The translations under genes were made by a program, and so were the position numbers. Below are positions 558 to 20,295 of a DNA stretch of 26,281 bases, piece by piece; the first letter of the stretch is position 1; each line of letters begins with the position of its first letter. The stretch comes from a virus. The stretch is taken from positions 1 to 26,281 of the IMG/VR virus record IMGVR_UViG_3300046750_000237, one strand, 5' to 3'. Under the pieces are notes generated by a model. It saw only the letters and a list, made by a program, of their open reading frames with translations, was not told the origin of the DNA and ran no database searches.

Positions 558-1030
558 AGGCTATATTTAAAAAGCATAATGATTGGGTTGATATTGTTCA
601 AACCTTTGGATGTAATAAAGAAACTGCCGAAGATTTGGTACAAGAAATGTATATTAAGATTCAACTCAAAATAAACAATGGGCTTGATATATCTTTTGGC
701 GATGAAGATATTAATCACATTTACGTTTTTAAAACATTACGGACTTTATTTCTTGACCTTAAAAGAAAGGAAAAAAATATATATTTTGAATCGGATCTGG
801 TTTTAGATGAGGTTGAATCCGATTTTAGTATTGATAATTTTGACGAAGTTTACGACCAAGTAAAAGGGGAACTAAAAAAAATGTACTGGTATGATAGGAA
901 GATATTTGATTTAATTGATAACGGTAAAAGTATTGCTGAACTTTCAAGAGATACAAATATATCTTATTATTCACTTTATAATACATATAGAAAGGTTATA
1001 GAAAAATTAAAACAAAATTTATGGGAGTAG
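545..1030 (+). CDS. Phage-encoded ECF-like RNA polymerase sigma factor
   Basis: A 161-residue protein with the two-domain plan of small sigma-70 family (ECF-like) factors. Residues 27-39 (TAEDLVQEMYIKI) match the conserved core of sigma region 2, which contacts the RNA polymerase beta' clamp helices. Residues about 110-155 look like region 4: a helix (YDRKIFDLIDNGKS) followed by a helix-turn-helix (SIAELSRDTNISYYSL...YRKVI) that would bind the upstream promoter element. The linker is acidic. It overlaps the genes on both sides (13 and 10 nt). It could redirect host polymerase to phage promoters and is the natural candidate for recognising the ACGTTATATANNTA sites in this window; that link is inference. 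A DNA-binding regulator without sigma activity is the alternative. Confidence 0.72.
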   Translation: MGGIEAIFKKHNDWVDIVQTFGCNKETAEDLVQEMYIKIQLKINNGLDISFGDEDINHIYVFKTLRTLFLDLKRKEKNIYFESDLVLDEVESDFSIDNFDEVYDQVKGELKKMYWYDRKIFDLIDNGKSIAELSRDTNISYYSLYNTYRKVIEKLKQNLWE

Positions 1031-6774: not shown

Positions 6775-6924
6775 ATGAACGCAGTATATTACAAAAAGGT
6801 ACTCAACTATTATTTAGGAGAGTTAGAAAGAAGAAGATTAGAGGACAATCAAAAACTAATCAATCACTATTTAGACGAAATAAACGCATTACAAGAAAGA
6901 TACCAGTACAAAAACGCTAAATAA
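6775..6924 (+). CDS. Small helical hypothetical protein
   Basis: A 49-residue ORF starting 1 nt after the adenine methyltransferase stop. It is entirely helical and charged (LGELERRRLEDNQKL is typical) and rich in Tyr at the N-terminus. It is the last gene before the first ACGTTATATANNTA site, so it probably ends the early block. No family recognised. Confidence 0.45.
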   Translation: MNAVYYKKVLNYYLGELERRRLEDNQKLINHYLDEINALQERYQYKNAK

Positions 6925-6926
6925 TT

Positions 6927-6940
6927 ACGTTATATAAATA
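6927..6940 (+). promoter_or_regulatory. ACGTTATATANNTA motif, site 1 (terminase operon)
   Basis: Exact copy of the repeated intergenic motif, 2 nt after the stop at 6924 and 28 nt before the terminase small-subunit ATG at 6968. If it is a promoter that starts at its final A, the leader is about 28 nt. It is one of two copies not fused to a start codon. Confidence 0.65.
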
Positions 6941-6967
6941 GATTGAATAAACAATATTTTTTCTATT

Positions 6968-7234
6968 ATGGATAAACGTAAGAATAACGGTGGAGCAAGA
7001 CAAGGTGCTGGACGACCTAAAAAAGCTGATGAATCTAAATTGATTGAGAAGCTAGATAACTTAATTGATAGCGATGAGGTTATACAAATGCTAGGTAAGA
7101 AAATCAAAGAGGGAGACCAACGTGCTATGACTTTGTACTTCAATTATAGATACGGTAAACCAAAAGAATCGGTTGACATAAATTCAAGCGAGGGTTTAAA
7201 TATAAACTTCAAAGATTTGATTAAGTTCAAATGA
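6968..7234 (+). CDS. terS: Terminase small subunit (candidate)
   Basis: An 88-residue protein. The N-terminus NNGGARQGAGRPKKADE is the glycine/basic 'GGARxGAGRPKK' signature found at the start of many small terminase subunits and their relatives. It is followed by helices (LIEKLDNLI...DEVIQMLGKKIKEGDQRAMTLYF) and YRYGKPKESVDI. It overlaps the large subunit start by 4 nt, the classical terS-terL arrangement. It would bind packaging-site DNA and regulate the motor. It is shorter than typical full-length TerS (130-180 residues), so it may represent only the DNA-binding and oligomerisation part. Confidence 0.72.
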   Translation: MDKRKNNGGARQGAGRPKKADESKLIEKLDNLIDSDEVIQMLGKKIKEGDQRAMTLYFNYRYGKPKESVDINSSEGLNINFKDLIKFK

Positions 7235-8439
7235 TAGAGATACACAAAAAGTATTCTCCAATTACTGAATCTGATAGTCGTTATTTTATTGTTACTGGTG
7301 GACGTGGTTCGGGGAAATCTTTTACATTAACCTTATTACTTGTTTTGCTTACATACGAAGCTGGACACGTTATATTGTTTACTCGTTATACACTTACTTC
7401 GGCTTACGTTTCTATTATACCCGAATTTATAGAGAAGTTAGAATTGCTTAATATCTTTGGCGATTTCCATATTACTAAAGATGAGATTGTAAATAAGCGT
7501 ACAGGAAGCAAGATAATATTTAAAGGTATCAAGACATCAAGCGGCGACCAAACTGCAAACCTAAAGTCCTTACAAGGCGTTACAACGTTTGTATTGGATG
7601 AAGCGGAAGAACTTACCAATGAAGATACATTTGATAAGATAGATTTGTCTGTTAGGAATATGCTCAAACAAAACAGGGTTATTCTTATACTAAACCCAAC
7701 TACAAAAGAGCATTGGATATACAATAGATTCTTTGAATCAAAGGGAATACAAGAGGGAAGCAATACAACTAAAGACAATATAACGTACATACACACGACT
7801 TATGAAGATAATAAGGAAAACCTATCTGAAAGTTTCTTACAACAAATAGAAACGATTAAAGAACGCAGACCGAATAAGTATCAACATCAAATACTAGGTG
7901 GCTGGTTAAATAAAGCAGAGGGAGTCATCTTTAGTAATTGGAAGATAGGCGAGTTTAAAGAAGTAGGCGTTTCAGTTTACGGTCAAGATTATGGATTTGC
8001 CTCAGATGAAAATACACTTGTTAAAACAAGCATAGATACTGCAAACAAAACAATATACATCAAAGAATGCTTTTATATTAAAGGGCTTACAACAAGCGAA
8101 ATATCGCAATTAAATTTAAAACACGCAGGTAGCAGTTTAATAGTAGGAGATTCAGCAGAGAAGCGATTAATACACGAATTGAAATCAAAAGGTTGTAATA
8201 TAGTAGAATCAATAAAAGGTGCGGGAAGCATAACGTATGGAATTAGCTTACTACAAGATTATGATTTAATAGTAAGCGAGGATAGTATAAACCTTATCAA
8301 AGAATTAAATAATTATAGTTGGTTAGAAAAAAAGTCAAACACTCCTGTAGATAAATTCAACCATATTATAGATGCGATTAGATACGCAATAACATACCAA
8401 CTACAAAACCCTAATAGAGGGCGTTACGCAATACGATGA
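7231..8439 (+). CDS. terL: Terminase large subunit
   Basis: A 402-residue packaging motor with both domains. ATPase: Walker A GGRGSGKS (residues 23-30) and Walker B FVLDEAEE (120-127) with the catalytic Glu, then ILILNPT as the coupling motif III. Nuclease (RNase H fold): D253 in QDYGF, D307 in VGDSAEKR and D381 in HIIDAIRYA supply the metal-binding acidic triad. The pattern fits the Terminase_3/Terminase_6C-type families of siphoviruses. The length is normal. It pumps DNA into the prohead through the portal and cuts concatemers. It overlaps terS and the following small ORF by 4 nt each. Confidence 0.95.
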   Translation: MIEIHKKYSPITESDSRYFIVTGGRGSGKSFTLTLLLVLLTYEAGHVILFTRYTLTSAYVSIIPEFIEKLELLNIFGDFHITKDEIVNKRTGSKIIFKGIKTSSGDQTANLKSLQGVTTFVLDEAEELTNEDTFDKIDLSVRNMLKQNRVILILNPTTKEHWIYNRFFESKGIQEGSNTTKDNITYIHTTYEDNKENLSESFLQQIETIKERRPNKYQHQILGGWLNKAEGVIFSNWKIGEFKEVGVSVYGQDYGFASDENTLVKTSIDTANKTIYIKECFYIKGLTTSEISQLNLKHAGSSLIVGDSAEKRLIHELKSKGCNIVESIKGAGSITYGISLLQDYDLIVSEDSINLIKELNNYSWLEKKSNTPVDKFNHIIDAIRYAITYQLQNPNRGRYAIR

Positions 8440-8588
8440 CAAATCAAGAGATGATACATTTAGTTCAGCACTACGTTAAAGTTATGAAAGGGGTTAATGT
8501 AAGAATAAGCGAACCTAATACGCCAAGCCAGTTCTTAAAACTATCAAAAGCCTACGAGGTTGCATTGGCTTATTTCAAGGCAAAATAA
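8436..8588 (+). CDS. Small protein translationally coupled to terminase
   Basis: A 50-residue ORF beginning on the TerL stop (ATGA). It reads as two helices around a turn (NVRISEPNTPSQF) and is mildly basic. A small ORF in this position is common in phages of this group, but I recognise no function. It ends the terminase operon; a perfect hairpin follows 6 nt downstream. Confidence 0.45.
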   Translation: MTNQEMIHLVQHYVKVMKGVNVRISEPNTPSQFLKLSKAYEVALAYFKAK

Positions 8589-8594
8589 GAAAAA

Positions 8595-8620
8595 CTTATA
8601 GTAGGTTTGTTTACTATAAG
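8595..8620 (+). repeat. Perfect 9-bp inverted repeat downstream of terminase operon
   Basis: CTTATAGTA (8595-8603) and TACTATAAG (8612-8620) are perfect inverted copies around an 8-nt loop. On the + strand it lacks a following T run, so it is not a canonical terminator. Read on the - strand it is followed by five T. It may be an mRNA 3'-end hairpin, a processing site or an operator. The rest of the 8589-8847 gap holds a motif copy (8660), a weak hairpin with a G6 run near 8745, and a host-type promoter (8788). Confidence 0.7.
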
Positions 8621-8659
8621 AAAATAGTATTGTATATTTTGTTTATTGTCATTATTTAT

Positions 8660-8673
8660 ACGTTATATATTTA
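8660..8673 (+). promoter_or_regulatory. ACGTTATATANNTA motif, site 2
   Basis: Exact copy of the repeated motif in the gap after the terminase genes. The nearest ATG (8677) opens only a 20-codon frame, so this copy would give a transcript with a long leader reading toward 8848 and beyond. Confidence 0.6.
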
Positions 8674-8787
8674 GAAATGCAGATATATATTAAAATCTAC
8701 ACATATATCAAAACCAAAAAAAGCATTCATAAAGTATAGAGGACTTGGGGGGATTCTACCTTTTTAAAAAAAAAGTTATTAAAAGTT

Positions 8788-8816
8788 TTGTTAATTAAAA
8801 AAAAGGTGTATTTTTG
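8788..8816 (+). promoter_or_regulatory. Bacteroidetes-type sigma-A promoter (TTG-N18-TATTTTTG)
   Basis: TTG (8788-8790), 18 nt, then TATTTTTG (8809-8816) is an exact fit to the Bacteroidetes -33/-7 consensus. The bases after the -7 box (TAATTCAAA) are identical to those after the 2887 box. ATG 8848 lies 31 nt past the box, with an A-rich leader. It would express the small gene cassette independently of the phage motif. Confidence 0.8.
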
Positions 8817-8847
8817 TAATTCAAATAACAATTTAAAACAAAACAAA

Positions 8848-9045
8848 ATGATAGATTTTTGGATTTGGAAAGACGGTACAATAAGTTATAAAAAGGGCGA
8901 TTCAATATATACAGAGAAGATAGTGGCGGAAAACGATGAGTACTATACTGTTGTAGAAATTGGAGCAGGAGAAAAACTTTGGAATGCAGGGTACGCAGTA
9001 GGTAACAGAGTTTACAGAAACCCAATAGACCTAACAACAATATAA
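8848..9045 (+). CDS. Small accessory protein with its own promoter and terminator
   Basis: A 65-residue protein, predicted mostly beta strands, beginning MIDFWIWKDGTISY and rich in Trp, Tyr and Gly. I took ATG 8848 because an upstream in-frame TTG (8788) is itself the -33 promoter element. The gene sits alone between an exact host-type promoter and a GNRA-loop terminator at 9054, inside the late gene region, so it can be expressed when the neighbouring structural genes are silent. No family recognised. Moron-like or early anti-host roles are possible. Confidence 0.6.
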   Translation: MIDFWIWKDGTISYKKGDSIYTEKIVAENDEYYTVVEIGAGEKLWNAGYAVGNRVYRNPIDLTTI

Positions 9046-9053
9046 AACAAACA

Positions 9054-9072
9054 GGGGGCGAAAGCCCCTTTT
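9054..9072 (+). terminator. GC-rich hairpin with GAAA loop and T4 tail
   Basis: GGGGC (9055-9059), GAAA loop, GCCCC (9064-9068), plus a G-T closing pair and TTTT (9069-9072). The stem is all G-C in otherwise AT-rich DNA. The T tail is short, so it may be a partial terminator letting some transcripts reach the 9085 gene. Confidence 0.75.
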
Positions 9073-9084
9073 AAAACAAGTAAT

Positions 9085-9333
9085 ATGAAAAAAATCGAAA
9101 CAATATTTATAGAATTAGAAAAATACGATGATACAATAGTGGAGGTTGATTATATATTTAGAGAGGCAGAACCAAGAGTTTATTACAATTCTGATATGTC
9201 GGGAGATGACGGACAAGATGCAGACACAAGTGTGATTTCGGTTAGAATTGATGACGTTTGTATATTGAATGTAATGAGCGATAAAGCAATAGAAAATTTA
9301 GAAGAAAGAATAACTAAAACACTAGAAAAATGA
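9085..9333 (+). CDS. Acidic hypothetical protein
   Basis: An 82-residue acidic protein with about 21 Asp/Glu against 10 Lys/Arg. A central DMSGDDGQDADTS loop is flanked by beta-rich segments (VEVDYIF, VISVRIDDVCIL) and a C-terminal helix. It begins 13 nt after the 9054 hairpin and overlaps the next ORF by 4 nt (ATGA). Small acidic phage proteins sometimes act as DNA mimics, but there is no specific evidence here. No family recognised. Confidence 0.5.
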   Translation: MKKIETIFIELEKYDDTIVEVDYIFREAEPRVYYNSDMSGDDGQDADTSVISVRIDDVCILNVMSDKAIENLEERITKTLEK

Positions 9334-9452
9334 TACGTAAATTTTTAAAGAAAGACAAAAACAATATTTACTGGTTAGCCAGTTTTTATGCAGCAGCATT
9401 TTTATTGGTACAAACATTTTTATTATTTGCAGGTTTAATAGATAGTATATAA
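9330..9452 (+). CDS. Single-pass membrane micro-protein
   Basis: A 40-residue ORF with a basic N-terminus (MIRKFLKKDK) and a hydrophobic segment at about 15-37 (LASFYAAAFLLVQTFLLFAG), so inserted in the inner membrane with the N-terminus inside. Its start overlaps the 9085 stop, and a strong terminator follows. No family recognised; it is too short to be a confident holin. Confidence 0.45.
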   Translation: MIRKFLKKDKNNIYWLASFYAAAFLLVQTFLLFAGLIDSI

Positions 9453-9484
9453 GAGTTTCATTATAGTTAATTGTTAATTGAGTT

Positions 9485-9517
9485 AAAGAGGTAGTCGTAA
9501 TTGGCTACCTTTTTTTT
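9485..9517 (+). terminator. Rho-independent terminator before the tail module
   Basis: AGGTAGTC (9489-9496) pairs with GGCTACCT (9503-9510), with one G-T pair and a 6-nt loop. The stem extends outward through A-T pairs into an eight-T run (9510-9517). It separates the accessory cassette from the motif-driven gene at 9554. Confidence 0.8.
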
Positions 9518-9540
9518 GTTTCAAAAATTGCGTTTAAAAT

Positions 9541-9554
9541 ACGTTATATAAGTA
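9541..9554 (+). promoter_or_regulatory. ACGTTATATANNTA motif, site 3 (tail module)
   Basis: Exact motif copy whose last base is the A of the ATG at 9554. It lies directly behind a terminator, so a new transcript must begin here or be read through from upstream. AAAATTG precedes it by 10 nt, as at site 6. Confidence 0.7.
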
Positions 9555-10204
9555 TGAAGATTGAAGTTATCATACCAAACGATTTAAGCGAAATTACTTT
9601 AGACCAGTATCAAAGGTTTCTAAAGATACAAGAGAACAACACAGATGAGAAGTTTTTAACCTCTAAAATGATTGAAATATTTTGCGGTATTAAGTTGCCC
9701 GAAGTATTGAAAATGAGGGTTAATGATGTGGCTTTAATTACAAACATCTTAACTGAAATGTTTGAGAATATACCTCAACTTGTACAACGCTTTAAAATGA
9801 ACGGAGTTGAATATGGTTTTATTCCAGATTTAGACGATATGAGTTTAGGGGAATACATAGACCTTGATACCTATCTAGGCGATTGGGAAAACATACACAG
9901 GGCAATGGCAGTACTATATAGACCTATTAAAAACAAAAGTGGTAACAGATACAACATAAAGGACTATGACGGTAAGGGATTCGAGGATATGAAAGATATG
10001 CCTTTAGATGCTGTTTTAAGTTCCATTGTTTTTTTTTACAATTTAGGGATAGAATTGTCGAAATCTATGATGAATTATTTGGAAACAACGGAGGAGGAAG
10101 CCTTGACCGAGTATCTCAATTCTCAACAAAATGGGGTTGGTATCAATCAATTTACGCACTCGCTAACGGAGATATTACAAGATTTGAAAATATCACTAAA
10201 CTAG
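9554..10204 (+). CDS. Tail assembly chaperone candidate, zero-frame product
   Basis: A 216-residue protein with an alpha-rich middle. It contains LSEITLDQYQRFLKIQ at the start, SLGEYIDLDTYLGDWENIHR near 97-116 and AVLYRPIKN. This resembles proteins located before the tape measure in flavobacterial phages. The gene carries a T9 slippery run at codons 159-162 (10029-10037), and an open -1 frame continues to 10290, ending exactly on the next start. That is the hallmark of the lambda G/GT-type chaperones that guide tail tube assembly around the tape measure. Identification rests on this frameshift and the position; sequence similarity to known chaperones is not obvious. Confidence 0.65.
   Translation: MKIEVIIPNDLSEITLDQYQRFLKIQENNTDEKFLTSKMIEIFCGIKLPEVLKMRVNDVALITNILTEMFENIPQLVQRFKMNGVEYGFIPDLDDMSLGEYIDLDTYLGDWENIHRAMAVLYRPIKNKSGNRYNIKDYDGKGFEDMKDMPLDAVLSSIVFFYNLGIELSKSMMNYLETTEEEALTEYLNSQQNGVGINQFTHSLTEILQDLKISLN
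10028..10038 (+). other. Slippery T9 run for -1 frameshift
   Basis: G followed by nine T and A (zero-frame codons GTT TTT TTT TAC). T TTT TTT is a canonical X XXY YYZ heptamer that allows both tRNAs to re-pair after slipping back one base. Ribosomal slippage and polymerase slippage would give the same product. No obvious stem-loop or Shine-Dalgarno stimulator was found by eye. Confidence 0.65.
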
Positions 10205-10290
10205 GAATGCACAATTGTTTTATGATGTTAGCATTTATGAAAGAGAAAAACGAATTAGAATCGAAACAAATTAAAAGCAAGTTCAAATGA
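10036..10290 (+). CDS. -1 frame extension of the tail chaperone candidate (GT-like)
   Basis: An 84-codon extension read after slipping at the T9 run. It starts LQFRDRIVEIYDELFGNN, continues through GGGSLDRVSQFSTKWGWY and ends with KEKNELESKQIKSKFK. The -1 frame has no usable ATG until 10207 and is open for about 105 codons back to a TAA near 9976. Its residues look like real protein: amphipathic helices, a KWGWYQSIYALA core and a charged C-terminal helix. Its stop (10288-10290) shares ATGA with the gene at 10287. The full frameshift protein would be about 245 residues (9554-10290). Expression level relative to the zero-frame form is unknown. Confidence 0.68.
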   Translation, partial: LQFRDRIVEIYDELFGNNGGGSLDRVSQFSTKWGWYQSIYALANGDITRFENITKLGMHNCFMMLAFMKEKNELESKQIKSKFK

Positions 10291-10757
10291 GCCAACAGGG
10301 AGTAAGAGGGTTTTATCAAATTACACAAAAGATAAAAGACCAACTATTATTGGATGATAATGTAAACACGGTAACAACTGGCGATATTACGGATGTAGAT
10401 TTGTCAAAGCAAACTATATTCCCGTTATCACACTTAATAATCAACAACGCAACCCAAGAGGACGGCGTATGGCGTTTCAATATGTCAATACTTGCAATGG
10501 ATATTGTGGATGTATCTAAAGACGCTACAACCGATATATTTGTAGGAAACAACAACGAACAAGACATACTTAACACACAATTAGCAGTGCTTAATAAACT
10601 GTTTCAAGTTTTAAGGGGTGGGACATTACATTTTGATTTATACCAAATAGACGGAAACCCAAGTTGTGAACCCTTTTATGATAGGTTTGAAAATCAAGTT
10701 GCAGGTTGGGCCGCTTCGTTTGATGTATTAATTGCAAACGATATACTTATTTGCTAA
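10287..10757 (+). CDS. Tail completion/terminator-like structural protein
   Basis: A 156-residue protein of mixed alpha/beta content. A helix (GFYQITQKIKDQLLLDD) opens it, a beta-rich part follows (TIFPLSHLIINNAT, WRFNMSILAMDIVD), then a helix (LNTQLAVLNKLFQVLRGG), and it ends FENQVAGWAASFDVLIAN. This 'W.f.m.ilamDiVd' layout resembles tail terminator/completion proteins that cap the tail tube. It starts on the stop of the frameshift product and ends one base into the next ATG (TAATG), consistent with a tail module. The function is assigned from fold impression and position only. Confidence 0.5.
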   Translation: MSQQGVRGFYQITQKIKDQLLLDDNVNTVTTGDITDVDLSKQTIFPLSHLIINNATQEDGVWRFNMSILAMDIVDVSKDATTDIFVGNNNEQDILNTQLAVLNKLFQVLRGGTLHFDLYQIDGNPSCEPFYDRFENQVAGWAASFDVLIANDILIC

Positions 10758-11287
10758 TGACATTAAAGGAAACAAATAAAGCCCTTAATAACTTTGCTAA
10801 ATACGTCATACAACAATCAAGAACGAATTTAACAAAAGGAGGTAAATACGGAACCTACAATGCTAGTGGCAAACTATATGAGTCTTTAGGTTATGACCTT
10901 AAAACGCACCCCAATAGCTTTTCGTTGGCTTTCTTTATGGAAAATTATGGAGAATTTAAAGACAGGGGGGTTCGTGGCGTTAAGGGAGGAAAATCTTACA
11001 GCAACTTTAGTTATAAAACTTCATCCAACTTAATTGGCTTAGAGTATAATACTGGTGTGTTTTCAAAATGGGCTAAATTAAGAAAAAAACAATTTAGAGA
11101 TAAAAAAGGAAGATTCTTATCTTATGAGCAGTCGGGATATGCATTAGCAAACATTATAAAAAACTACGGTATAAAGCCTAGCTTATTTTTTACCAAACCT
11201 TTTGAGAAAGCATTTGATAGATTGCCCGATGAACTTATAGAAAAATTTGCCCTTGACCTAGAACAATTTTTAGATACAACAACATAA
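10757..11287 (+). CDS. HK97 gp10-like head-tail/tail completion candidate
   Basis: A 176-residue basic protein. It begins LKETNKALNNFAKYVIQQSR, includes NASGKLYESLGYDLK and MENYGEFKDRGVRGVKGG, and has a C-terminal FFTKPFEKAFDRLPDEL. The combination 'a..i...sr..l..ga..aSG.L..s....', 'yg.f.d.GvkG', and a late 'pf' block with terminal helix resembles the gp10-like head-tail connector/completion family. I chose ATG 10757 (TAATG overlap) rather than a TTG two codons upstream. It shares TAATG with the next gene too. Presumably a structural component at the head-tail or tail end. Confidence 0.5.
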   Translation: MTLKETNKALNNFAKYVIQQSRTNLTKGGKYGTYNASGKLYESLGYDLKTHPNSFSLAFFMENYGEFKDRGVRGVKGGKSYSNFSYKTSSNLIGLEYNTGVFSKWAKLRKKQFRDKKGRFLSYEQSGYALANIIKNYGIKPSLFFTKPFEKAFDRLPDELIEKFALDLEQFLDTTT

Positions 11288-12429
11288 TGACAAAACTAAA
11301 CGCAAGAAGCCCTTATTATATAAAAGTAGATGACATAAATTTAAGTTATGCTACTTTGCAACTATACGTATACACAGGAGTATTCACAACAGACAAGCGA
11401 GTTACGGCACAGTACACGATAACCAAAAGCGAAATTGCATCAAACAATTATGTAATATTTGAAATTGCCGAACTTGTAAGGGATTATTTAGATATATCTT
11501 TTAACCAAGAATTTACAGAGGATTTATACAAAGCAAGGGTACTCGCTGACGGTGGTACATTTGAGGGTTCAAGTTGTTTGAGCGCAATATTAGATACTTT
11601 AGATGATGACTTTAGAAGTCAAACAGTTTGGGTTGAAGCTGATATAACTTTATACAATTCTTCTGATGCAAGTATCGGAACAAGCAATACTGATTATTTA
11701 GCCTTTGACGGTTATGCTTATTTCACAGACGGAACAAATGCTGAACTTAGTAGAACGCTTTTACAATCTAATACCGATATATATGTAGAGAACGGAGAAA
11801 GGGTGCAAGTTCCTGTTTATACCGATGAAGTTACTTCTGTTCAATTTTATAATGGTGGCGTATTACATACGACCGAAACAATTACAAGTTCTACCAACTC
11901 TAACGCACAAATAAAATATGCAGGAAGTTCTTTAGCTACCGATGAAATTAGGGTAATATCAAGTGCAGGAACAGAAACAATAAATGTATATCAAACTGAC
12001 GAATGCAGATACACGCCTTATAGAGTTACTTTTGTAAACAAGTTCGGTGTATTACAAAATTTATATTTCTTTAAAAAGTCAATAGAAAATATAAACACTA
12101 CAACCGAAAATTACAAAGCCAATACATTTAATCAAAACACTTTAGATTACGACATACAAAGCCACCAATATAAGCAGTTTCAAAAAGCAGGTAAAGAAAG
12201 TATTACAATGAACACTGGATATGTTTCAGAGCAATACAACGAGGTTATGAAACAACTTCTTTTAAGTGAGCAAGTATGGATGACAAAAACAATAGATACT
12301 ACGCCTACTATATTACCTATAAATGTTAAAACGCAATCACTACAATATAAAACAAGTGTAAATGACAAATTGATTAATTACACTATTGATTTTGATTATG
12401 CCTTTGACAAAATAAACAATATTAGATAA
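11287..12429 (+). CDS. Virion structural protein (tail region)
   Basis: A 380-residue, beta-rich protein with many Thr, Ser and Tyr residues and no membrane segment. It begins MTKLNARSPYYIKV, followed by alternating strands. Residues 82-97 (KARVLADGGTFEGSSC) resemble a motif in the 64-residue protein at 22636. The C-terminal part (VTFVNKFGVLQNLYFFKKS, then YDIQSHQYKQFQKAGKES) also reads as beta sandwich material. I associate this pairing with the next gene with Bacteroidetes phage tail or baseplate structural operons, but no specific role is known. It ends TAATG. Confidence 0.55.
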   Translation: MTKLNARSPYYIKVDDINLSYATLQLYVYTGVFTTDKRVTAQYTITKSEIASNNYVIFEIAELVRDYLDISFNQEFTEDLYKARVLADGGTFEGSSCLSAILDTLDDDFRSQTVWVEADITLYNSSDASIGTSNTDYLAFDGYAYFTDGTNAELSRTLLQSNTDIYVENGERVQVPVYTDEVTSVQFYNGGVLHTTETITSSTNSNAQIKYAGSSLATDEIRVISSAGTETINVYQTDECRYTPYRVTFVNKFGVLQNLYFFKKSIENINTTTENYKANTFNQNTLDYDIQSHQYKQFQKAGKESITMNTGYVSEQYNEVMKQLLLSEQVWMTKTIDTTPTILPINVKTQSLQYKTSVNDKLINYTIDFDYAFDKINNIR

Positions 12430-14495
12430 TGCAGGAGATACAATTATACATACAAGGGGAACAAGTAGAATTGTTTAAAGACGAATCGGTAAGCATTACG
12501 CAATCAATACAAAACGTAAAAGATATTGCAAAGGTATTTACAGAATTTACAAAGTCGTTTACCGTTCCTGCTTCCAAAAAAAACAATCGAATTTTTAAGC
12601 ATTATTATAATTACGATATTGTAGGTGGGTTTGATGCAAGAAAAAAAGTATCTTCAACAATAGAACTTAATTACTTACCTTTTAAAAATGGGTTTATTAA
12701 ATTAGAGGGTGTAGATTTAAAAAACAATAGCCCTTATGCTTATAGGCTTACTTTCTTTGGTGCAACTGTAAACCTTAAAGATATATTAGGCGAAGACAAA
12801 CTTGATGCCTTAGGTTGGTTAGACAATTTTGTTTTAGATTATAGTTCCTCAAATATATTATCATATTTTGGAAGTGGTGCTGATATTACAGTAGATTCAA
12901 CTACTTATACAGATGCGGTTTTAGTACCTTTAATTTCACACACAAAAGGACTTTATTACGATTCTTCAATTTCAACTGCTGAAAGTGGAAATTTACATTA
13001 TTCAACAGAACAAACACAGGGCGTATTGTGGAAAGACTTAAAGTATAGTATTAGGGTGCATTTGATTATATTGGCTATTCAAGAAGCATATCCCGAAATT
13101 CAATTTAGCGATGACTTTTTTGATTCAAGCAATTCGGCGTATTATGATTTGTATATGTGGATGCACCGAAAAAAAGGGGATGTACAAGGTTCAGCAACAG
13201 GGGTTCAAGTGTATAGTAAAATTATAAATACATTCGGCTCATTTAATGAGTTGGGGGGTTATATAAACAATCCGATACTTTATATTCCCGAACCAAGCCC
13301 AAGTTCCCCTTATGAATGGATTGTTGCAAGATTATTTATAGAGCCTGCAAGTTTAACAACGCCTTATGATGTTATTTTAAAAAAGGACGGTGTAATTGTA
13401 GAAGAACTTATAAACGTAACAGGAAACCAAAACTTAAGTGCACCAAGCACAGGTGGAGAAGTAAATTCGGGTTCATATACTGTAACCTTAAGGTCAACAA
13501 CAACTATAACTTTCAACGATGTATATTGGAATGTTAGGGTTTTTAATGACATTGAGGGTACGCTTGAAATAAACGAAAACATATATGCAGGTTCAACTAC
13601 AATATTAGAGGAATTTGCTTTTTATCCAACACAACAATTACCCGAAATAAAAATAATTGATTTTCTAACTGGGTTGTTTAAGACTTTCAATCTAACTGCA
13701 TACGAGGAGGGTGGGATAATAAAAGTAGAAACTTTAGATAATTATTATTCAAGTTTTAATAGTTATGACATTAGCGAGTTTGTAGATGTAAATACAAGCG
13801 CGGTAAATGTAGGGCTACCATATAAAGAAATAAGTTTTATAAATAAAGGTACTGACAGTTTTTTTGCTTCTGTATTCAATCAATTAAACAACAGGGAATA
13901 CGGACAACTAGACTATAAAGGAGAGGAAAATCAAAACTGGGAGGGTTCTATTTATAAAGTAGAGTTGCCATTTGAGCATTTATTATATGAAAGGTTATAT
14001 GACGGAGATACTTCAACCTTAACTTCTGTACAATGGGGGTGGATGACAGACGATAATCAAGAATCGTATATCGGTGCGCCATTATTACATTATGTAGATA
14101 GGCAAACCTTTTCTCCGTCACCAACTTCAACTTTTATAAGTTTTAGAACCTCAGATACTGCAAGAACTGGTTTGTATAATTATTATATACCTTTAAACTC
14201 AAACAACACTTCGGGTACAGGGCAATCGTTAAATTTCTTTGCTGAAATTGATGAGTATTCTTTAACAGTAAACACTGAGACTTTGTTTAATAATTATTAT
14301 GTAAATTATATAAAAGATGTTTTTAATAGTAAAAGAAGATTAACAAAATTAAAGGCTTATTTGCCATTGAAAATATTATTAAACTTTGAACTTTCTGATA
14401 GGTTTGATATTAACGGACAAAGGTATAAAATTAACTCAATCACTACGAACCTAAAAACAGGCGAAAGCGATATAGAATTATTAAACGAAGTATGA
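12429..14495 (+). CDS. Large structural protein (tail/baseplate-type, Bacteroidetes phages)
   Basis: A 688-residue beta-rich protein. The N-terminal block (ELFKDESVSITQSIQNVKDI, then FTEFTKSFTVPASKKNNRIF) is a pattern I recognise from structural proteins of flavobacterial and Bacteroides phages. The middle contains FFGATVNLKDILGEDKLDAL, and the C-terminal third (about residues 400-688) has LKTFNLTAYEEGGIIKVETL and RRLTKLKAYLPLKILL, resembling baseplate-hub/tail-protein folds. It lies just before the tape-measure-like gene. It may be a distal tail or hub component. No catalytic motif is visible. Confidence 0.6.
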   Translation: MQEIQLYIQGEQVELFKDESVSITQSIQNVKDIAKVFTEFTKSFTVPASKKNNRIFKHYYNYDIVGGFDARKKVSSTIELNYLPFKNGFIKLEGVDLKNNSPYAYRLTFFGATVNLKDILGEDKLDALGWLDNFVLDYSSSNILSYFGSGADITVDSTTYTDAVLVPLISHTKGLYYDSSISTAESGNLHYSTEQTQGVLWKDLKYSIRVHLIILAIQEAYPEIQFSDDFFDSSNSAYYDLYMWMHRKKGDVQGSATGVQVYSKIINTFGSFNELGGYINNPILYIPEPSPSSPYEWIVARLFIEPASLTTPYDVILKKDGVIVEELINVTGNQNLSAPSTGGEVNSGSYTVTLRSTTTITFNDVYWNVRVFNDIEGTLEINENIYAGSTTILEEFAFYPTQQLPEIKIIDFLTGLFKTFNLTAYEEGGIIKVETLDNYYSSFNSYDISEFVDVNTSAVNVGLPYKEISFINKGTDSFFASVFNQLNNREYGQLDYKGEENQNWEGSIYKVELPFEHLLYERLYDGDTSTLTSVQWGWMTDDNQESYIGAPLLHYVDRQTFSPSPTSTFISFRTSDTARTGLYNYYIPLNSNNTSGTGQSLNFFAEIDEYSLTVNTETLFNNYYVNYIKDVFNSKRRLTKLKAYLPLKILLNFELSDRFDINGQRYKINSITTNLKTGESDIELLNEV

Positions 14496-14638
14496 TACAA
14501 AATATATTAGAAATGCTAAAGATAGCAAACGGAGAAACGGAAAACATTCGTATTGCACAAGGTAAATATAAATTACCCGAAACATTAAAGGATACATACA
14601 ATCAAATTAAAACAGAGATAAAATGGCAACAAAGGTAA
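14492..14638 (+). CDS. Small conserved protein before the tape measure gene
   Basis: A 48-residue ORF that starts on the stop of the previous gene (ATGA) and overlaps the next start by 16 nt. It reads NILEMLKIANGETENIRIAQ, then YKLPETLKDTYNQIKTEI. I have seen this 'ANGETENI.IAqG.Y.LP' pattern in flavobacterial phages. It might be a small structural or chaperone-type protein. The long overlap with the tape measure start argues for translational coupling. Confidence 0.6.
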   Translation: MIQNILEMLKIANGETENIRIAQGKYKLPETLKDTYNQIKTEIKWQQR

Positions 14639-16422
14639 CAATAGATTTAGAAGCCAAAACGGATAAGGCAATAGGCGAAATTGAATCTTTAAAGGAACAG
14701 ATTGTAAAACTCAATAAACAAGTTGCAGAGGGTAACGACAACACTAAAAAAGGTTTGGGTGGTGTTGAGAAAGCAACAAAAGGAGCGTTAGGTGGTGTTA
14801 AAAAAATAGGTAGAGGCTTAAAAGCATTAACAAGTGGTGTTGGAGTTTTGTTTCTTTTGAATAAAGCATTCGAGGTTTTTAAAGAGATAGGAATGAAAAA
14901 TCAAAAGGTTGTAGACGCCCTTGAAATTGCTATGGAATCTTTAAGTATTGTATTTAATCAATTCTTTACATACATATCGGACAATATAGGAACTGTTACT
15001 GGGTTTTTTAAAGATTTATTTGAAAATCCAAAAGAAAGAATAACAGAACTTGCAGAATCAATCAAAACTGGATTGCTTGATAGGTTTAATCAATTACTAG
15101 AGGTTTTTGGTTTAGTAGGTAAGGCGTTTGGAAAATTAATTAAAGGAGAATTTTCTGAAGCATTTGATACAATAAAGCAAGCTGGAAAAGAAGTCGTTGA
15201 TGTTTATACAGGTGTTGATGATAGTTATGAAAAAGTAGCTAAAACTGTTACCGACTACACTAAAAAGGTTATTAACTCTGCTAAAGAAAATGTTAAACTT
15301 GCAAAAACAGCAGAACTCGCAGCGGTTAAAAATCAAGGTTTAATAGAAAAATTTGATAAACAAGCAGAGCAATTAAGACAAGTAAGAGATGACGAAAGTA
15401 AAAGTTTTGCAGAAAGGATAAAAGCAAATGAGGATTTGGCGTTAGTTCTTGACGAGCAAGAAAAACAAATGCGAGCCAACGCTAATTTAATGGTTGAAAG
15501 AGCCAAAACAGAACTTGACAAAAACAAAGATAATATTGAGTTGCAAAAAGCATATCAAGAAGCACTTAACGAACAAGCTGGAATTGAGGCTCAAATAACT
15601 GGTTTTAGAAGTGAGCAACAAACAAATGCAAACTCATTATTAAGAGAGCAAAAAGATTTACAAAATGAATTAGCTTTAATAGGTAAGTCAGAAAGAGAAA
15701 TTGAACGGTTAGAGTTACAACAAGATTATGATGCTAAAAAGGCATTAATCGAAAGGGAAGTAACAGACGAAATTAAAAGAAAAGAAACATTAAAAAATCT
15801 TGAGGCAGAATACAATGCTCAAATATCCAGTATAGACCAAGCGGCACTTGATGAAAAAATAGATAAAGCAAATCAAGAACACGAATTGGAAAAACAGAAG
15901 ATACAAGATAAAGCAATGGTAGTTGACGCTATTAGTCAATTTGCAAATGCTGAAACTGGCATCGGAAAAGCCTTACTTATTGCAAAACAAGCTCTTGCAT
16001 TAAAGGAAACCATAATGGACTTAAAAAGAATTACTTTTAAAGGAGCAGAAGCAGTAGGACAAGCAGGAGTAAGCGCAGCCCAAAACGTAGCTGAATCCTC
16101 TAAAATTGGTTTTCCTCAAAACATTATAACAATAGCAGCAGCAATAGGGCAAGGAATAGGAATCATAAAGTCTGTTAAAAGCGCAGTAGCAAAAACAAAA
16201 GCCAAAGCAACTGGAGGGGGTTCAACTGGTGTGTCAACTCCAAGCGCAGCAACTCCCTCACAACCCCCTCAATTTAATATAGTAGGCGCAGGGGGAACAA
16301 ACCAGCTTGCAGAAGCTATTGGAAGCCAAGAGAAACAACCAGTAAAAGCCTATGTAGTTTCGAATGACGTTACTACTGCACAATCAATGGATAGGAATAT
16401 TGTAGAGGGTGCATCAATTTAA
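14623..16422 (+). CDS. Tape measure-like protein
   Basis: A 599-residue protein. The N-terminus (VTIDLEAKTDKAIGEIESLK) is typical of tape measure proteins. Next comes a Gly-rich amphipathic stretch and a hydrophobic segment at about 60-85 (LTSGVGVLFLLNKAFEVF). A long charged coiled-coil region follows (about 200-430, with many Lys/Glu and ELE/QEQ patterns), then a hydrophobic, Ala/Gly-rich stretch (ALLIAKQALALKETIMDL, IITIAAAIGQGIGIIKS) and a Gly/Ser/Pro linker before a short end. Tape measure length sets tail length at about 0.15 nm per residue, so about 90 nm. It is short for a siphovirus, but no contractile sheath gene is visible. Confidence 0.72.
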   Translation: MATKVTIDLEAKTDKAIGEIESLKEQIVKLNKQVAEGNDNTKKGLGGVEKATKGALGGVKKIGRGLKALTSGVGVLFLLNKAFEVFKEIGMKNQKVVDALEIAMESLSIVFNQFFTYISDNIGTVTGFFKDLFENPKERITELAESIKTGLLDRFNQLLEVFGLVGKAFGKLIKGEFSEAFDTIKQAGKEVVDVYTGVDDSYEKVAKTVTDYTKKVINSAKENVKLAKTAELAAVKNQGLIEKFDKQAEQLRQVRDDESKSFAERIKANEDLALVLDEQEKQMRANANLMVERAKTELDKNKDNIELQKAYQEALNEQAGIEAQITGFRSEQQTNANSLLREQKDLQNELALIGKSEREIERLELQQDYDAKKALIEREVTDEIKRKETLKNLEAEYNAQISSIDQAALDEKIDKANQEHELEKQKIQDKAMVVDAISQFANAETGIGKALLIAKQALALKETIMDLKRITFKGAEAVGQAGVSAAQNVAESSKIGFPQNIITIAAAIGQGIGIIKSVKSAVAKTKAKATGGGSTGVSTPSAATPSQPPQFNIVGAGGTNQLAEAIGSQEKQPVKAYVVSNDVTTAQSMDRNIVEGASI

Positions 16423-16444
16423 AATGCAAAATTAACAATTAATT

Positions 16445-16458
16445 ACGTTATATAGTTA
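16445..16458 (+). promoter_or_regulatory. ACGTTATATANNTA motif, site 4 (protease)
   Basis: Exact motif copy in the 35-nt gap before the protease gene; its last base is the A of ATG 16458. AAAATGCAAAAT precedes it at 16423-16434, as it does before site 5. Confidence 0.7.
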
Positions 16459-17063
16459 TGAAGATAATCGAACTCATTTTAGACGAAAACGAAGAGTTAA
16501 ACGGAATTGAGGCAATATCTATTGTTGAAAGCCCAGCGATTGAGGAAGATTTTATTGCATTAAAGAGCGATGAAATAAAACTTGCCGAAGTATCAAAAGA
16601 ACGTAGAGTATTAATGGGAGCATTGTTGATACCTAACAAGCCTATATATAGACGCAATGGAGAAGATGAATATTATATATACTTTTCCAACGATACGGTG
16701 TTAAAAGCCTCCCAAATGTATTTAATGAAAGGCAATCAAAACAACAGTACACTTGAACATCAATACAGTTTAAGTGGTTTGTCTTTAGTTGAATCTTGGA
16801 TTGTTGAAGATGAGGTACACGACAAATCAAGAAAGTACGGAATGGAAGTACCAGTAGGAACTTGGATGGGTACAGTAAAAGTAAACAACGACCAAGTGTG
16901 GGAAGAATTTGTTAAAACAGGAAAAGTAAAAGGTTTTTCTATTGAGGGTTATTTTGCTGATAAAATGGAACGCCCTAAAGAATCTTTAAAAGAAGAATTG
17001 ACGGAAGAAAAACAAGCAGAAGAATTATTGTCTAAAATCAAAAACATTTTGACAAATGCCTAA
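16458..17063 (+). CDS. XkdF-like prohead serine protease
   Basis: A 201-residue protein. It begins with IELILDENEELNGIEAISIV then ESPAIEEDFIALK, which is the N-terminal pattern of XkdF-type proteins (Peptidase_S78_2), with the usual 'ENPAIE'-like site. The core includes ALLIPNKPIYR, TLEHQYSLSGLSLVESWIVE and VKVNNDQVWEEFVKTG, then GFSIEGYF; the His in EHQ and the Ser in GFSIEG are candidates for the catalytic His and Ser of the prohead protease fold. The C-terminal tail is acidic and helical. It would trim scaffold and capsid N-termini during head maturation. The start is fixed by the conserved N-terminus and lies exactly at the motif. Confidence 0.8.
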   Translation: MKIIELILDENEELNGIEAISIVESPAIEEDFIALKSDEIKLAEVSKERRVLMGALLIPNKPIYRRNGEDEYYIYFSNDTVLKASQMYLMKGNQNNSTLEHQYSLSGLSLVESWIVEDEVHDKSRKYGMEVPVGTWMGTVKVNNDQVWEEFVKTGKVKGFSIEGYFADKMERPKESLKEELTEEKQAEELLSKIKNILTNA

Positions 17064-17226
17064 AGCCTGTTATTGTAAAGATACAAACACTTACTCAATC
17101 AAATGTTGTGACGGTAGTTTATGGGCGCAAGGGATAGGAAGAACACAAGCACCCGAACCGTTTTTTTTATTACAAGAAGATAGCAGTTTATTACTACAAG
17201 AGGACAACGAAAAAATAGTATTATAA
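17056..17226 (+). CDS. Cys-rich small phage protein
   Basis: A 56-residue ORF overlapping the protease stop by 8 nt and the next ATG by 1 nt (TAATG). It begins MPKACYCKDTNTYSIKCCDG, with four cysteines (5, 7, 17, 18), then SLWAQGIG. I recognise the 'C...TYSI.CCDGS..AQGIG' pattern as a short conserved protein of flavobacterial phages, next to head genes, with no known role. A T8 run sits inside the gene. A disulfide or metal-stabilised small virion protein is possible. Confidence 0.65.
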   Translation: MPKACYCKDTNTYSIKCCDGSLWAQGIGRTQAPEPFFLLQEDSSLLLQEDNEKIVL

Positions 17227-17675
17227 TGGCAAACTTAAAAATCTCACAATTACCAGTAGCATCAAACCCAAGTGGGGATGAATTGTTGGCAAGTGTACAA
17301 AGTGGAACTACCAAACAAATAAAGGTTAATCAAATAGTAAACTACATTTCTGCTACAAGTTTAACTTTTGAAGTAGGGGATACTGTTAATTTAAGCGATT
17401 CTGCTTATAGTGAATCTGAATTAATAAGGTTACACTGGAGTGGTGCAACTGGAACTGCTGCTTTAAATTTACCCGACGCAACTCTAAATACAAATAGATT
17501 GATTCGTTTTATTTCAAATGGTGGGTTTACCGCATCTACAAGAGTAGAATTAACGCCAATATTAAGTCAAACTATTGACGGTTCAACTTCACCTTATGTT
17601 ATAAACAAAGAATATGAGGGAATACAAGTTTGGTCTGACGGTGTAGAATGGTTTATCATTCAGAAGAAAGCCTAA
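17226..17675 (+). CDS. Fibre- or decoration-like structural protein
   Basis: A 149-residue protein opening with LKISQLPVASNPSGDELLAS then VQSGTTKQIKV. 'L.ISqLP.a....GdElL...q.g..kqi.v' is a common N-terminal anchor of phage fibre and decoration proteins. The remainder is a beta-rich domain (RLIRFISNGGFTASTRVEL, YEGIQVWSDGVEWFII) like small trimeric fibre heads. Position between the protease and the scaffold suggests a head fibre or capsid decoration rather than a tail fibre. It shares TAATG with the Cys-rich gene. Confidence 0.6.
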   Translation: MANLKISQLPVASNPSGDELLASVQSGTTKQIKVNQIVNYISATSLTFEVGDTVNLSDSAYSESELIRLHWSGATGTAALNLPDATLNTNRLIRFISNGGFTASTRVELTPILSQTIDGSTSPYVINKEYEGIQVWSDGVEWFIIQKKA

Positions 17676-17702
17676 ACAAAAATGCAAAATATAAATTAAT
17701 AA

Positions 17703-17716
17703 ACGTTATATAATTA
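17703..17716 (+). promoter_or_regulatory. ACGTTATATANNTA motif, site 5 (scaffold/capsid)
   Basis: Exact motif copy; its last base is the A of ATG 17716. AAAAATGCAAAAT (17680-17692) precedes it, placing TGC 18-20 nt before the motif as at site 4. It would drive the scaffold and major capsid genes. Confidence 0.7.
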
Positions 17717-18312
17717 TGAAACCAATGGAAATGCTAAAAGAAATCAAAACACTTTTGGGCGTTGAGGAAACTAAAAAAGTTTCTTTGGCTCAAATGAAGT
17801 TAGAAAATGGTACTGTTTTAGAAGCAGAATCATTCGAGGCAGGAAAAGAAGTTTTTATTGTAACCGAAGATGATAAAGTTGCTTTACCAGCAGGCTCGTA
17901 TCAACTAGAGGACGGAATGAAACTAACTGTCGTAGATGAGGGAATTATTGAATCAATCGAAGAAGCCAAAGACGAAGAAGAAGTCGAGGAAGAAGTTGAG
18001 GAAGTTGAAGAAGTAGAAGCAGCCGAAGAAGAAAAAGAAGAAATGGGCTATGCTACTAAAGAAGAACTTGCCGAAGTTAAGTCAATGATTGAGGAAATAA
18101 AAGCTATGCTTGAACCTAAAGAAGATTTAAGCGAAGAAGTTAAGGAAGAAGTTAAAGAAGACGAAGTATTGAAAGAAGAATTGTCTGCGCCAGCTTCTGA
18201 ACCTTTGAAACACAATCCCGAATCACAAGAAGAAAAAACATTGAATTTGCACGGACAAAAACGTCCACAAACTACAATGGATAGAGTATTAAACAAAATT
18301 ATAAACCAATAA
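17716..18312 (+). CDS. Acidic scaffold-like protein
   Basis: A 198-residue protein. A short N-terminal beta domain (VSLAQMKLENGTVLEAES, then VALPAGSYQLEDGMKL) leads to an extremely acidic segment at residues about 78-112 (runs of Glu with few other residues). A predicted coiled coil follows (TKEELAEVKSMIEEIKAML), then a basic C-terminal tail (GQKRPQTTMDRVLNKI). A coiled coil with a basic C-terminal end directly before the capsid gene is the usual layout of scaffolding proteins, which chaperone capsid assembly and are then removed by the protease. No sequence family is recognised. Confidence 0.65.
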   Translation: MKPMEMLKEIKTLLGVEETKKVSLAQMKLENGTVLEAESFEAGKEVFIVTEDDKVALPAGSYQLEDGMKLTVVDEGIIESIEEAKDEEEVEEEVEEVEEVEAAEEEKEEMGYATKEELAEVKSMIEEIKAMLEPKEDLSEEVKEEVKEDEVLKEELSAPASEPLKHNPESQEEKTLNLHGQKRPQTTMDRVLNKIINQ

Positions 18313-18324
18313 AATAAATTTATT

Positions 18325-19248
18325 ATGCCTAAACCAACAATTACAAGTACTTATGCAGGAGAATTTGCAGGGAAATATATCTCGGCTGCCCTATTAAGTG
18401 GTGCTACTATCGAAAACGGAGGAATCGAAGTAAAGCCAAACGTAAAGTTTAAAGAAGTAATCAAAACCGTTTCTACAACTGGATTGATTGCCGATGCAAC
18501 TTGCGACTACACTGATGCAGGAACTGTAACACTTAACGAAAGAGTTATTGAGCCAGAATCTTTTCAAGTAAACCTTACACTGTGTAAGAGCCAATTTCAT
18601 TCAGATTGGGAAGCAGTATCTATGGGATATTCAGCTTTCGATTCTTTGCCACCTAACTTTAGCGAATTTTTAATTGCTCACGTAGCTGGAAAAGTTGCTG
18701 AAAAAACAGAGCAAAACATTTGGAGTGGAGTTGATGCTAACGCAGGAGAATTTGACGGACTTGTTACTTTGGCTACTGCTGATGCTGATGTTGTCGATGT
18801 TGCAGGAACTACCGTTGATGCTGCAAACGTAATTAGTGAACTCGGAAAAATAGTTGATTCCATAAATTCTAGCCTCTATGGCAAAGAAGACCTTTACATT
18901 TATGTTTCACAAAACATTGCTCGTGCCTATGTACGTGCTTTGGGTGGATTTGCTGCTGCTGGTCTTGGTGCTAACGGTGTAAACGCACAAGGTACTCAAT
19001 GGTGGAACAACGGAGCATTGTCTTTTGACGGTGTAAAATTGTTTGTTGCTAACGGACTTGCTGACAACACTGCTATGGCAGCTCAAAAATCAAATCTTTT
19101 CTTTGGAACTGGACTACTTTCAGACCACAACGAAGTAAAAGTATTGGATATGGGTGACCTTGACGGTTCTGACAATGTTCGTGTAATAATGCGATTTACC
19201 GCCTCCGTACAATATGGCGTAGGTGCTGACATCGTACTTTATTCTTAA
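18325..19248 (+). CDS. Major capsid protein (HK97-fold candidate)
   Basis: A 307-residue protein without a membrane segment. The N-terminal part (YAGEFAGKYISAALLSGATI) is flexible and could be protease-processed. The body has long alpha and beta segments such as FHSDWEAVSMGYSAF and FLIAHVAGKVAEKTEQNIWS, which suit the E-loop/spine helix and P domain of the HK97 fold. The Ala/Gly-rich C-terminal half ends VQYGVGADIVLYS. Its length, position after a scaffold-like gene, strong terminator and its own short leader fit a highly expressed capsid gene. The fold cannot be proven from sequence reading. Confidence 0.75.
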   Translation: MPKPTITSTYAGEFAGKYISAALLSGATIENGGIEVKPNVKFKEVIKTVSTTGLIADATCDYTDAGTVTLNERVIEPESFQVNLTLCKSQFHSDWEAVSMGYSAFDSLPPNFSEFLIAHVAGKVAEKTEQNIWSGVDANAGEFDGLVTLATADADVVDVAGTTVDAANVISELGKIVDSINSSLYGKEDLYIYVSQNIARAYVRALGGFAAAGLGANGVNAQGTQWWNNGALSFDGVKLFVANGLADNTAMAAQKSNLFFGTGLLSDHNEVKVLDMGDLDGSDNVRVIMRFTASVQYGVGADIVLYS

Positions 19249-19270
19249 TAATTAATTAACCAATAAAATA

Positions 19271-19308
19271 GGGTAGGTGGGTTGTTTGCCTACTTACCCT
19301 TTTTTTTT
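19271..19308 (+). terminator. Strong rho-independent terminator after capsid gene
   Basis: GGGTAGGTGGG (19271-19281) pairs with CCTACTTACCC (19289-19299) over 11 positions with two G-T pairs and a 7-nt loop, followed by nine T (19300-19308). It lies between the capsid and the next gene and would limit read-through or stabilise the capsid mRNA 3' end. Confidence 0.85.
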
Positions 19309-19323
19309 AAAACCTTATAAAAT

Positions 19324-19851
19324 ATGGCTTGTGTATTAACAACTGGTAGAAAAGTACCTTGCAAATCGGCAGTAGGTGGAATAAAATCCGTTTACTTTGC
19401 TGACTTTGGAACTTTGGGTACTGCTACTATTGCTTCGGGAGAGATTACCGCATTTTCGGGAACGCCCGATTGGTTTGAATTTGACGTAAAAGGAAATTCA
19501 AGTCTTGAAACTACCGTAAACTCATCAAGAGAAAACGGAACAACTTTCTATACTCAAACTCTTAACTTGACTTTAACTTTCTTGGATAAAGCAACACAAG
19601 AGGAATTGAAACTATTGGCTCACGCTAGACCACACGTTGCAGTAGAAGATTACAACGGAAACTTTTTCCTTGTAGGACTTGAACACGGTGCAGAGGTTAC
19701 TGGTGGAACAGTCGTTACTGGTGCTGCTATGGGAGATTTGAGTGGATTTACATTAACATTCGAGGGACAAGAAACTGCACCCGCTTACTTTGTAACATCA
19801 ACGGTTATTACTGATGATGCTTCTGCGGTACAGATTGACCCGACTGCTTAA
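19324..19851 (+). CDS. Major tail tube protein candidate
   Basis: A 175-residue beta-rich protein beginning MACVLTTGRKVPCKSAVGGI. It is followed by strands (SVYFADFG, TFYTQTLNLTLTFL), a helix with a conserved-looking KLLAHARPHVAVEDYNGNFF, and a late GDLSGFTLTFEGQETAPAYF. A 'G..nGyt.tf.g.e..pa.f' ending is typical of the tail tube and related phage tail proteins; size and composition fit a single-domain tube protein. It sits between two terminators, so it can be made in large amount. Alternative: a capsid decoration protein. Confidence 0.55.
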   Translation: MACVLTTGRKVPCKSAVGGIKSVYFADFGTLGTATIASGEITAFSGTPDWFEFDVKGNSSLETTVNSSRENGTTFYTQTLNLTLTFLDKATQEELKLLAHARPHVAVEDYNGNFFLVGLEHGAEVTGGTVVTGAAMGDLSGFTLTFEGQETAPAYFVTSTVITDDASAVQIDPTA

Positions 19852-19870
19852 TTAGTTTTTATTGATTGAA

Positions 19871-19901
19871 AAGGCACTCTTTTATAGGGTGCTTTTTTTT
19901 T
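19871..19901 (+). terminator. Rho-independent terminator after tube candidate
   Basis: GCACTCT (19874-19880) pairs with AGGGTGC (19886-19892) with one G-T pair and a 5-nt loop; the stem is extended by A-T pairs and followed by nine T (19893-19901). It precedes motif site 6. Confidence 0.8.
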
Positions 19902-19934
19902 GCATTTATATTAGTACAAAATTGACTATTTATT

Positions 19935-19948
19935 ACGTTATATATATA
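19935..19948 (+). promoter_or_regulatory. ACGTTATATANNTA motif, site 6 (19948/portal operon)
   Basis: Exact motif copy behind a terminator; its last base is the A of ATG 19948. AAAATTG precedes it by 10 nt, the same arrangement as at site 3. It would drive 19948, portal, connector and fibre genes. Confidence 0.7.
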
Positions 19949-20295
19949 TGAAACATCTTACAACATCAACAGATGCGCAAATAGTTAAAATTATCCCAAG
20001 AAGTTATGTATCAAACGCAACTTTAAAATTAAGGGACGATTCAACCAATACAGAAGTTTCTTATTCGGTTACGCCAACAACGGACGGTAATTATTTGGTA
20101 ATATCAAACTCTTACACACTTGTTGAGGGTAGGTTTTACGATTTGACTTTATTAGACGGAACGGAAGTAATTTACAAAGACAAAGTATTTTGCACAGACC
20201 AAACAATAAGCCAGCCAAACAACGACTATTATACGGTAAATAAAGACGTATATAAGTCAGATACATCATTTGACAACGATTATATTATATTATGA
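19948..20295 (+). CDS. Conserved hypothetical, beta-rich structural protein
   Basis: A 115-residue beta-strand-rich protein. It begins MKHLTTSTDAQIVKIIPR, shows immunoglobulin-like alternating strands (TLKLRDDSTNTEVSYSV, YLVISNSYTLVEGRFYDLTL), and ends with Tyr and Asp clusters (NDYIIL). I recall similar proteins in flavobacterial phages next to portal genes, without a role. It is coupled to the portal gene by a 4-nt ATGA overlap, consistent with a virion protein. Confidence 0.55.
   Translation: MKHLTTSTDAQIVKIIPRSYVSNATLKLRDDSTNTEVSYSVTPTTDGNYLVISNSYTLVEGRFYDLTLLDGTEVIYKDKVFCTDQTISQPNNDYYTVNKDVYKSDTSFDNDYIIL

Follow-up and report, generated by a model that had tools for sequence, protein, structure and literature searches.

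Probable late promoters of a Bacteroidota phage family and a phage-encoded ECF-like sigma factor that may read them

We analysed a stretch of viral DNA of 26,281 nucleotides (IMG/VR record IMGVR_UViG_3300046750_000237; the whole stretch is called the window here) and found repeated two-part sites before its structural operons, together with a gene for an ECF-like sigma factor. The sites are probably late promoters of a Bacteroidota phage family, read by the host RNA polymerase with the phage's own ECF-like sigma factor (545-1030), and we hold this reading with fairly high confidence. The relatives of the phage and the presence of TAnnTTTG-type sites suggest that the host is a flavobacterium. 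The phage family appears to infect marine bacteria and to make its own sigma factor.

Two-part sites and the sigma factor gene in the window

Copies of ACGTTATATANNTA were located at 6927, 8660, 9541, 16445, 17703 and 19935, all on the + strand, as an earlier note on this DNA had placed them. The claims that they are intergenic and far above chance were also borne out, as 0/6 copies lay inside an ORF and dinucleotide shuffles gave an expectation of 0. A CAAAA box was observed 18 to 19 bp 5' of the core in 5/6 copies, the copy at 8660 being without it, and the window holds five full two-part sites and one promoter-like core (8660). The scoring matrix used for these sites was trained on other genomes, without the window and its nearest relative. 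The five full sites scored 25 to 31 bits and the 8660 copy 15.2, compared to a best score of 13.3 in the shuffles. A near-match at 1544, which by eye seems to lie within a small reading frame, was set aside. The features are as follows.

545..1030, + strand: putative ECF-like sigma factor of 161 aa with sigma2, short linker and sigma4 (profile homologues, predicted fold)
6909..6940, + strand: predicted late promoter 1, CAAAA 6909-6913 and ACGTTATATAAATA 6927-6940; terminase operon, predicted leader ~28 nt
8660..8673, + strand: promoter-like core without upstream A box; a 20-codon ORF follows
8788..8816, + strand: host-type promoter candidate, TTG ... TATTTTTG with a TAnnTTTG -7 box; outside the late set, listed for contrast
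9485..9514, + strand: terminator-like hairpin just 5' of promoter 3
9522..9556, + strand: predicted late promoter 3, CAAAA 9522-9526 and ACGTTATATAAGTA 9541-9554; ends on ATG 9554, tail operon
16427..16460, + strand: predicted late promoter 4, CAAAA 16427-16431 and ACGTTATATAGTTA 16445-16458; ends on ATG 16458, head maturation protease
17685..17718, + strand: predicted late promoter 5, CAAAA 17685-17689 and ACGTTATATAATTA 17703-17716; ends on ATG 17716, scaffold/capsid operon
19270-19300: terminator-like hairpin 3' of the capsid gene
19868..19898, + strand: terminator-like hairpin just 5' of promoter 6
19917..19950, + strand: predicted late promoter 6, CAAAA 19917-19921 and ACGTTATATATATA 19935-19948; ends on ATG 19948, portal operon

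The operons that the earlier note had assigned to the sites were recovered for the terminase pair, tail, head maturation protease, scaffold/capsid and portal genes, but not for the 8660 copy, which has only the 20-codon ORF and no clear gene after it. Strong terminator-like hairpins were indeed present 5' of sites 3 and 6, with the third lying 3' of the capsid gene, and the motif is, as claimed, unlike the host -7 box TAnnTTTG, the sites reading TAnnTATG or TAnnTAGA. Reading of the flanks showed that ACGTTATATANNTATG ends on the start codon at 9541, 16445, 17703 and 19935 (4/6 copies). This ATG coincidence, the upstream A box, the incompleteness of the 8660 copy, the sigma gene and the family-wide spread were all absent from that note. 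In the region 8660-8790, a ACGTTATATA core without A box is followed by the 20-codon ORF and then by the host-type promoter candidate; the 8660 core is also found in the close relatives L206, L208 and L128.

The protein encoded at 545-1030 is a putative phage-encoded two-domain ECF-like sigma factor, an assignment that is weak by single-sequence Pfam comparison and draws on a medium-confidence model. The single sequence gave an E value of 0.007 against Pfam, below the cut-off, with a weak sigma region 2 signature. Sigma70_r2 was matched weakly by 26/31 of the relatives' homologues, and the homologue gp35 of Nonlabens phage P12024L (Inhavirus), which carries the GenBank note "containing Sigma-70 region 2", lay above the Pfam Sigma70_r2 cut-off. 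The predicted model (pLDDT 75, pTM 0.45) consists of two 4-helix domains with helices at 3-77 and 96-160 and a linker of ~20 residues (<50 aa in the ECF criterion). The best PDB matches in a fold search were ECF sigma factors (top E 0.002, probability 1.00). Among viruses, the top matches that carry a name were annotated Sigma70-ECF. When solved structures were searched by sequence, the result was limited to ECF matches without significance.

The window sigma had no match in the phage collection by direct tblastn, and it was the profile that linked it to P12024L gp35 (E 1e-11). The sigma profile matched 35/36 long relatives, the remaining one being recovered on iteration, and every near-complete relative carries a homologue. 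When cellular genomes were scanned for the sigma family, no relative was found, and a prophage or host origin of the gene is thus unsupported. Unlike many ECF loci, the sigma gene at 545 had no late-type site 5' of it in the matrix scan of the window, and no anti-sigma gene was recognised in the annotations, in which many neighbours are of unknown function. The early region also contains two DNA methyltransferase genes (4911-5552 and 6123-6773, PHROGs matches) and, between early genes, an ORF at 3832-4368 that by eye is a putative HNH homing endonuclease with an AP2-like C-terminus.

Sites and sigma genes across the phage family

Loci of relatives were collected through the similarity of their proteins to the sigma factor, terminase and capsid, and the motif was not used for the choice. 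The core was found at 99 distinct places in 70 of these loci, always on the gene strand. For a further count we used 21 near-complete genomes of the window's clade, of which G026, G028, G030, G031, G033 and the window had entered through the motif or the finding itself and the rest through proteins. The matrix for this count stops before the ATG and was trained on the same 21 genomes. It gave 92 sites, with 92/92 on the late-gene strand and 0 inside ORFs, and nearly all of them precede terminase, tail, protease, scaffold and portal operons. The motif search in related phages that the earlier note had proposed, run in this way, returned sites before the same late operons in 21 genomes.

The C of CGTT lay 12 nt before the ATG in 45 of the 92 sites, 13 nt in 17 and 16 nt in 10, with 62 at 12 to 13 nt. 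The terminase-side sites kept both boxes, with the ATG ~31-44 nt from the C. The A box was likewise retained: AAA was in place or shifted by one in 69/70 CGTTATA sites with the ATG 12-13 nt after the C, and the box was kept at the same spacing also in relatives' sites whose ATG lies elsewhere. In orthologue upstream regions gathered irrespective of the motif, CGWTA occurred exactly at -12 before the tail (27/42), protease (17/45) and scaffold (12/44) genes, and no case was found before the in-operon capsid gene (0/56) or the gene following it (0/64). Cellular genomes totalling 257 Gb contained the full pattern only 37 times, spread across phyla and for the most part with no gene after it; in viral contigs, its matches number at least those listed. 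Among the mRNAs of the five full promoters, a real leader is predicted for that of the terminase alone, and GATTGAATAAACAAT in this leader (6941-6967) is conserved, for example in L190, L229 and L254.

These data support the assignment of the sites as late promoters, where "late" is predicted from the identity of the genes served and does not refer to measured timing. The earlier note had offered a late promoter or an operator. The late promoter is the best reading and the operator the weaker one, because the sites recur before the same operons with a fixed strand and a second box at fixed spacing, alongside a sigma gene.

P12024L, which has a diverged sigma and a terminase 54% identical to that of the window, lacks ACGTTATATA in its genome. 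Seven sites resembling CGTTAATA were found in it, preceded by boxes resembling AAAACAAA, and the distance from the C to the depositor-annotated start codon is exactly 12 nt in 6/7 of them and 11 nt in 1/7. Lineages with a diverged sigma carried other boxes at the same place: CGATATA in G019, GGTTAACCTATTATG with ATAACACTT upstream in G020 and G025, and AGTTAT/TATTGTA boxes in others. The drift of the box (CGATATA, GGTTAAC, AGTTAT) accompanies sigma divergence, and sigma identity and box mismatch were correlated (Mantel, parsimony), with boxes typed only where recognisable. The co-divergence tests agree with each other, but we give them little weight, as they are confounded by this labelling and by shared ancestry, which explains part of the correlation and may explain all of it. 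A deep freshwater lineage (G021-G024, loci L383-L390) has a diverged sigma gene and no recognisable CGTT-like box before its late genes, and k-mer counts alone revealed no box in the deep lineages. Both the sigma gene and the sites are absent from Riemerella phage RAP44, which is related through its terminase.

Register to the start codon and alternative readings

Hallmarks of ECF systems are a two-domain sigma factor and promoters that carry AAC in the -35 and CGT in the -10 element (PMC8103513). CGT is present in every window site, whereas the upstream box in the window is CAAAA and not AAC; AAC at -35 is found in P12024L and in the GGTTAAC lineage. Four window copies have the C of CGTT 12 nt before the A of ATG, and the terminal A of the motif is that same A. 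The open complex of sigma-H has its -10 GTT at -11 to -9 and its -35 GGAACA at -34 to -29, positions that we derived from the scaffold given in the paper (PMC6411747). If the phage GTT is aligned to these positions, +1 falls on the A of ATG, and the same alignment places the AAC of P12024L at -32 to -30, as in sigma-H. Compared with the -35 box in sigma-H promoters, the A box of the phage sites is 1-3 bp nearer to CGTT, which counts against the proposed reading. An ECF promoter at a start codon is possible, since ECF promoters 0-1 nt from the start codon occur in C. glutamicum (PMC10012870).

The 12-nt register and the ECF structure suggest that four of the five full promoters would give leaderless mRNAs starting at AUG, which would be unusual for this bacterial group. 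Most mRNAs of Flavobacterium johnsoniae are leadered (87% above 10 nt, mean 33 nt), and Bacteroidota have no Shine-Dalgarno signals and use upstream A bases instead (PMC6847099). A tentative extension, which we consider rather doubtful, is that the phage family has locked its late sigma promoters onto the start codon, making nearly the whole structural regulon leaderless in otherwise leadered hosts and possibly favouring phage translation late, when initiation is altered.

We propose the following mechanism. The host sigma factor would transcribe the early genes, among them the sigma gene, from TAnnTTTG promoters. As the phage sigma builds up, it would turn on the terminase, tail, protease, capsid and portal operons at the same time. 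Its sigma4 domain would contact the A-rich box (CAAAA, about -31 to -27), while the CGTTATATA box would be bound by sigma2, the C lying at -12 and GTT at -11 to -9. The conserved A of NNTA would be the start of transcription. Where that A is also the start codon A, as in four of the five full promoters, the mRNA would begin at AUG, and the terminase promoter would produce a short leader.

The same promoters and phage sigma could act with a start that lies upstream or a few bases into the gene, in which case the AUG coincidence would not be true leaderlessness, for example if a downstream start codon is used. This fits the ATG at 13 or 16 nt, not 12, in some orthologues. However, orthologues share the protein N-terminus that directly follows this ATG, the P12024L start codons were annotated independently, and the ECF structural register sets +1 on the A (PMC6411747), so we regard a shifted start as improbable. 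A translation-start element in the mRNA with a Kozak-like context is extremely unlikely: most sites have the motif in contact with the start codon, and Bacteroidota without Shine-Dalgarno signals use upstream A bases (PMC6847099), but the terminase sites keep both boxes with the ATG ~31-44 nt off, and in-operon genes needing high expression, such as capsid, are without the motif.

The sites could also be promoters of the host housekeeping sigma, TANNTATG then being a variant form of the TAnnTTTG -7 box of Bacteroidota. This would explain why TAnnTATG is one base from TAnnTTTG at four sites, and A-rich DNA upstream is common in Bacteroidota housekeeping promoters (PMC6847099). However, the TG is missing at 6927, 8660 and in many relatives while CGTTATA is kept nonetheless, the host start 4-5 nt after the G (PMC6847099) would fall within the gene, and true host-type sites exist elsewhere in the phage, which makes this explanation very unlikely. 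We attach equally little probability to operators for a phage repressor or activator; the repetition of near-identical sites before operons speaks for them, but 92/92 are oriented to the gene and consist of two unlike boxes with fixed spacing and a fixed register to the gene start. Bacteroidota possess many ECF factors, which counts for the phage exploiting host ECF sigma promoters, as does CGTT. The latter is a common ECF -10 core (PMC8103513). With the full pattern at only 37 scattered places in 257 Gb of cellular genomes and an own sigma gene in every near-complete relative, host ECF control is barely credible.

Significance and comparison with known systems

The window and its relatives provide a candidate sequence-level late-gene switch (sigma, two-part promoter, regulon) for aquatic Bacteroidota phages, an abundant and little-studied group. 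Their diverging sigmas and promoters also form a naturally matched series from which ECF specificity could be decoded. If the mRNAs are leaderless, this would be family-wide leaderless late phage expression in hosts without Shine-Dalgarno signals and with leaders averaging 33 nt (PMC6847099), and the question of why leaderless translation persists would become directly testable. Late promoters read by a phage-encoded sigma are established for phiEco32 and, in bipartite form, for 7-11 (PMC8948821), and the proposed system would operate in the same manner. Phage sigma factors that serve late promoters are thus known, and the CGTT class, the Bacteroidota setting and the leaderless register are new as far as could be found; no prior description of leaderless phage late genes, Flavobacterium phage late promoters or P12024L promoters was found in the open-access library that was searched.

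The late promoters of T4 (gp55, TATAAATA) resemble the window system in their phage sigma-like factor and AT-rich late box. They have no -35 element and require the sliding clamp, whereas the window system has a conserved upstream box; a T4-type single-box reading was considered and rejected. The gp47 sigma and late promoters of Salmonella phage 7-11, of the phiEco32-like group, also have a phage sigma that reads bipartite late promoters, but they differ in promoter sequence, host phylum and gene set, and the word "leaderless" is absent from the paper (PMC8948821). Similarly, phiEco32 gp36 is a phage-encoded distant sigma70-family factor serving middle and late promoters, but the phiEco32 promoter is the single element tAATGTAtA and its sigma has no region-4 homology (PMC8948821). 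M. tuberculosis sigma-H and other ECF factors share the -10 GTT/CGT core, the two-domain sigma and the rigid spacing (PMC6411747, PMC8103513), although the cellular factors regulate stress responses, have GGAACA as their -35 box and are usually paired with an anti-sigma factor. P12024L gp35 is a homologous sigma with its own CGTTAATA sites at start codons, its promoter box having diverged from that of the window.
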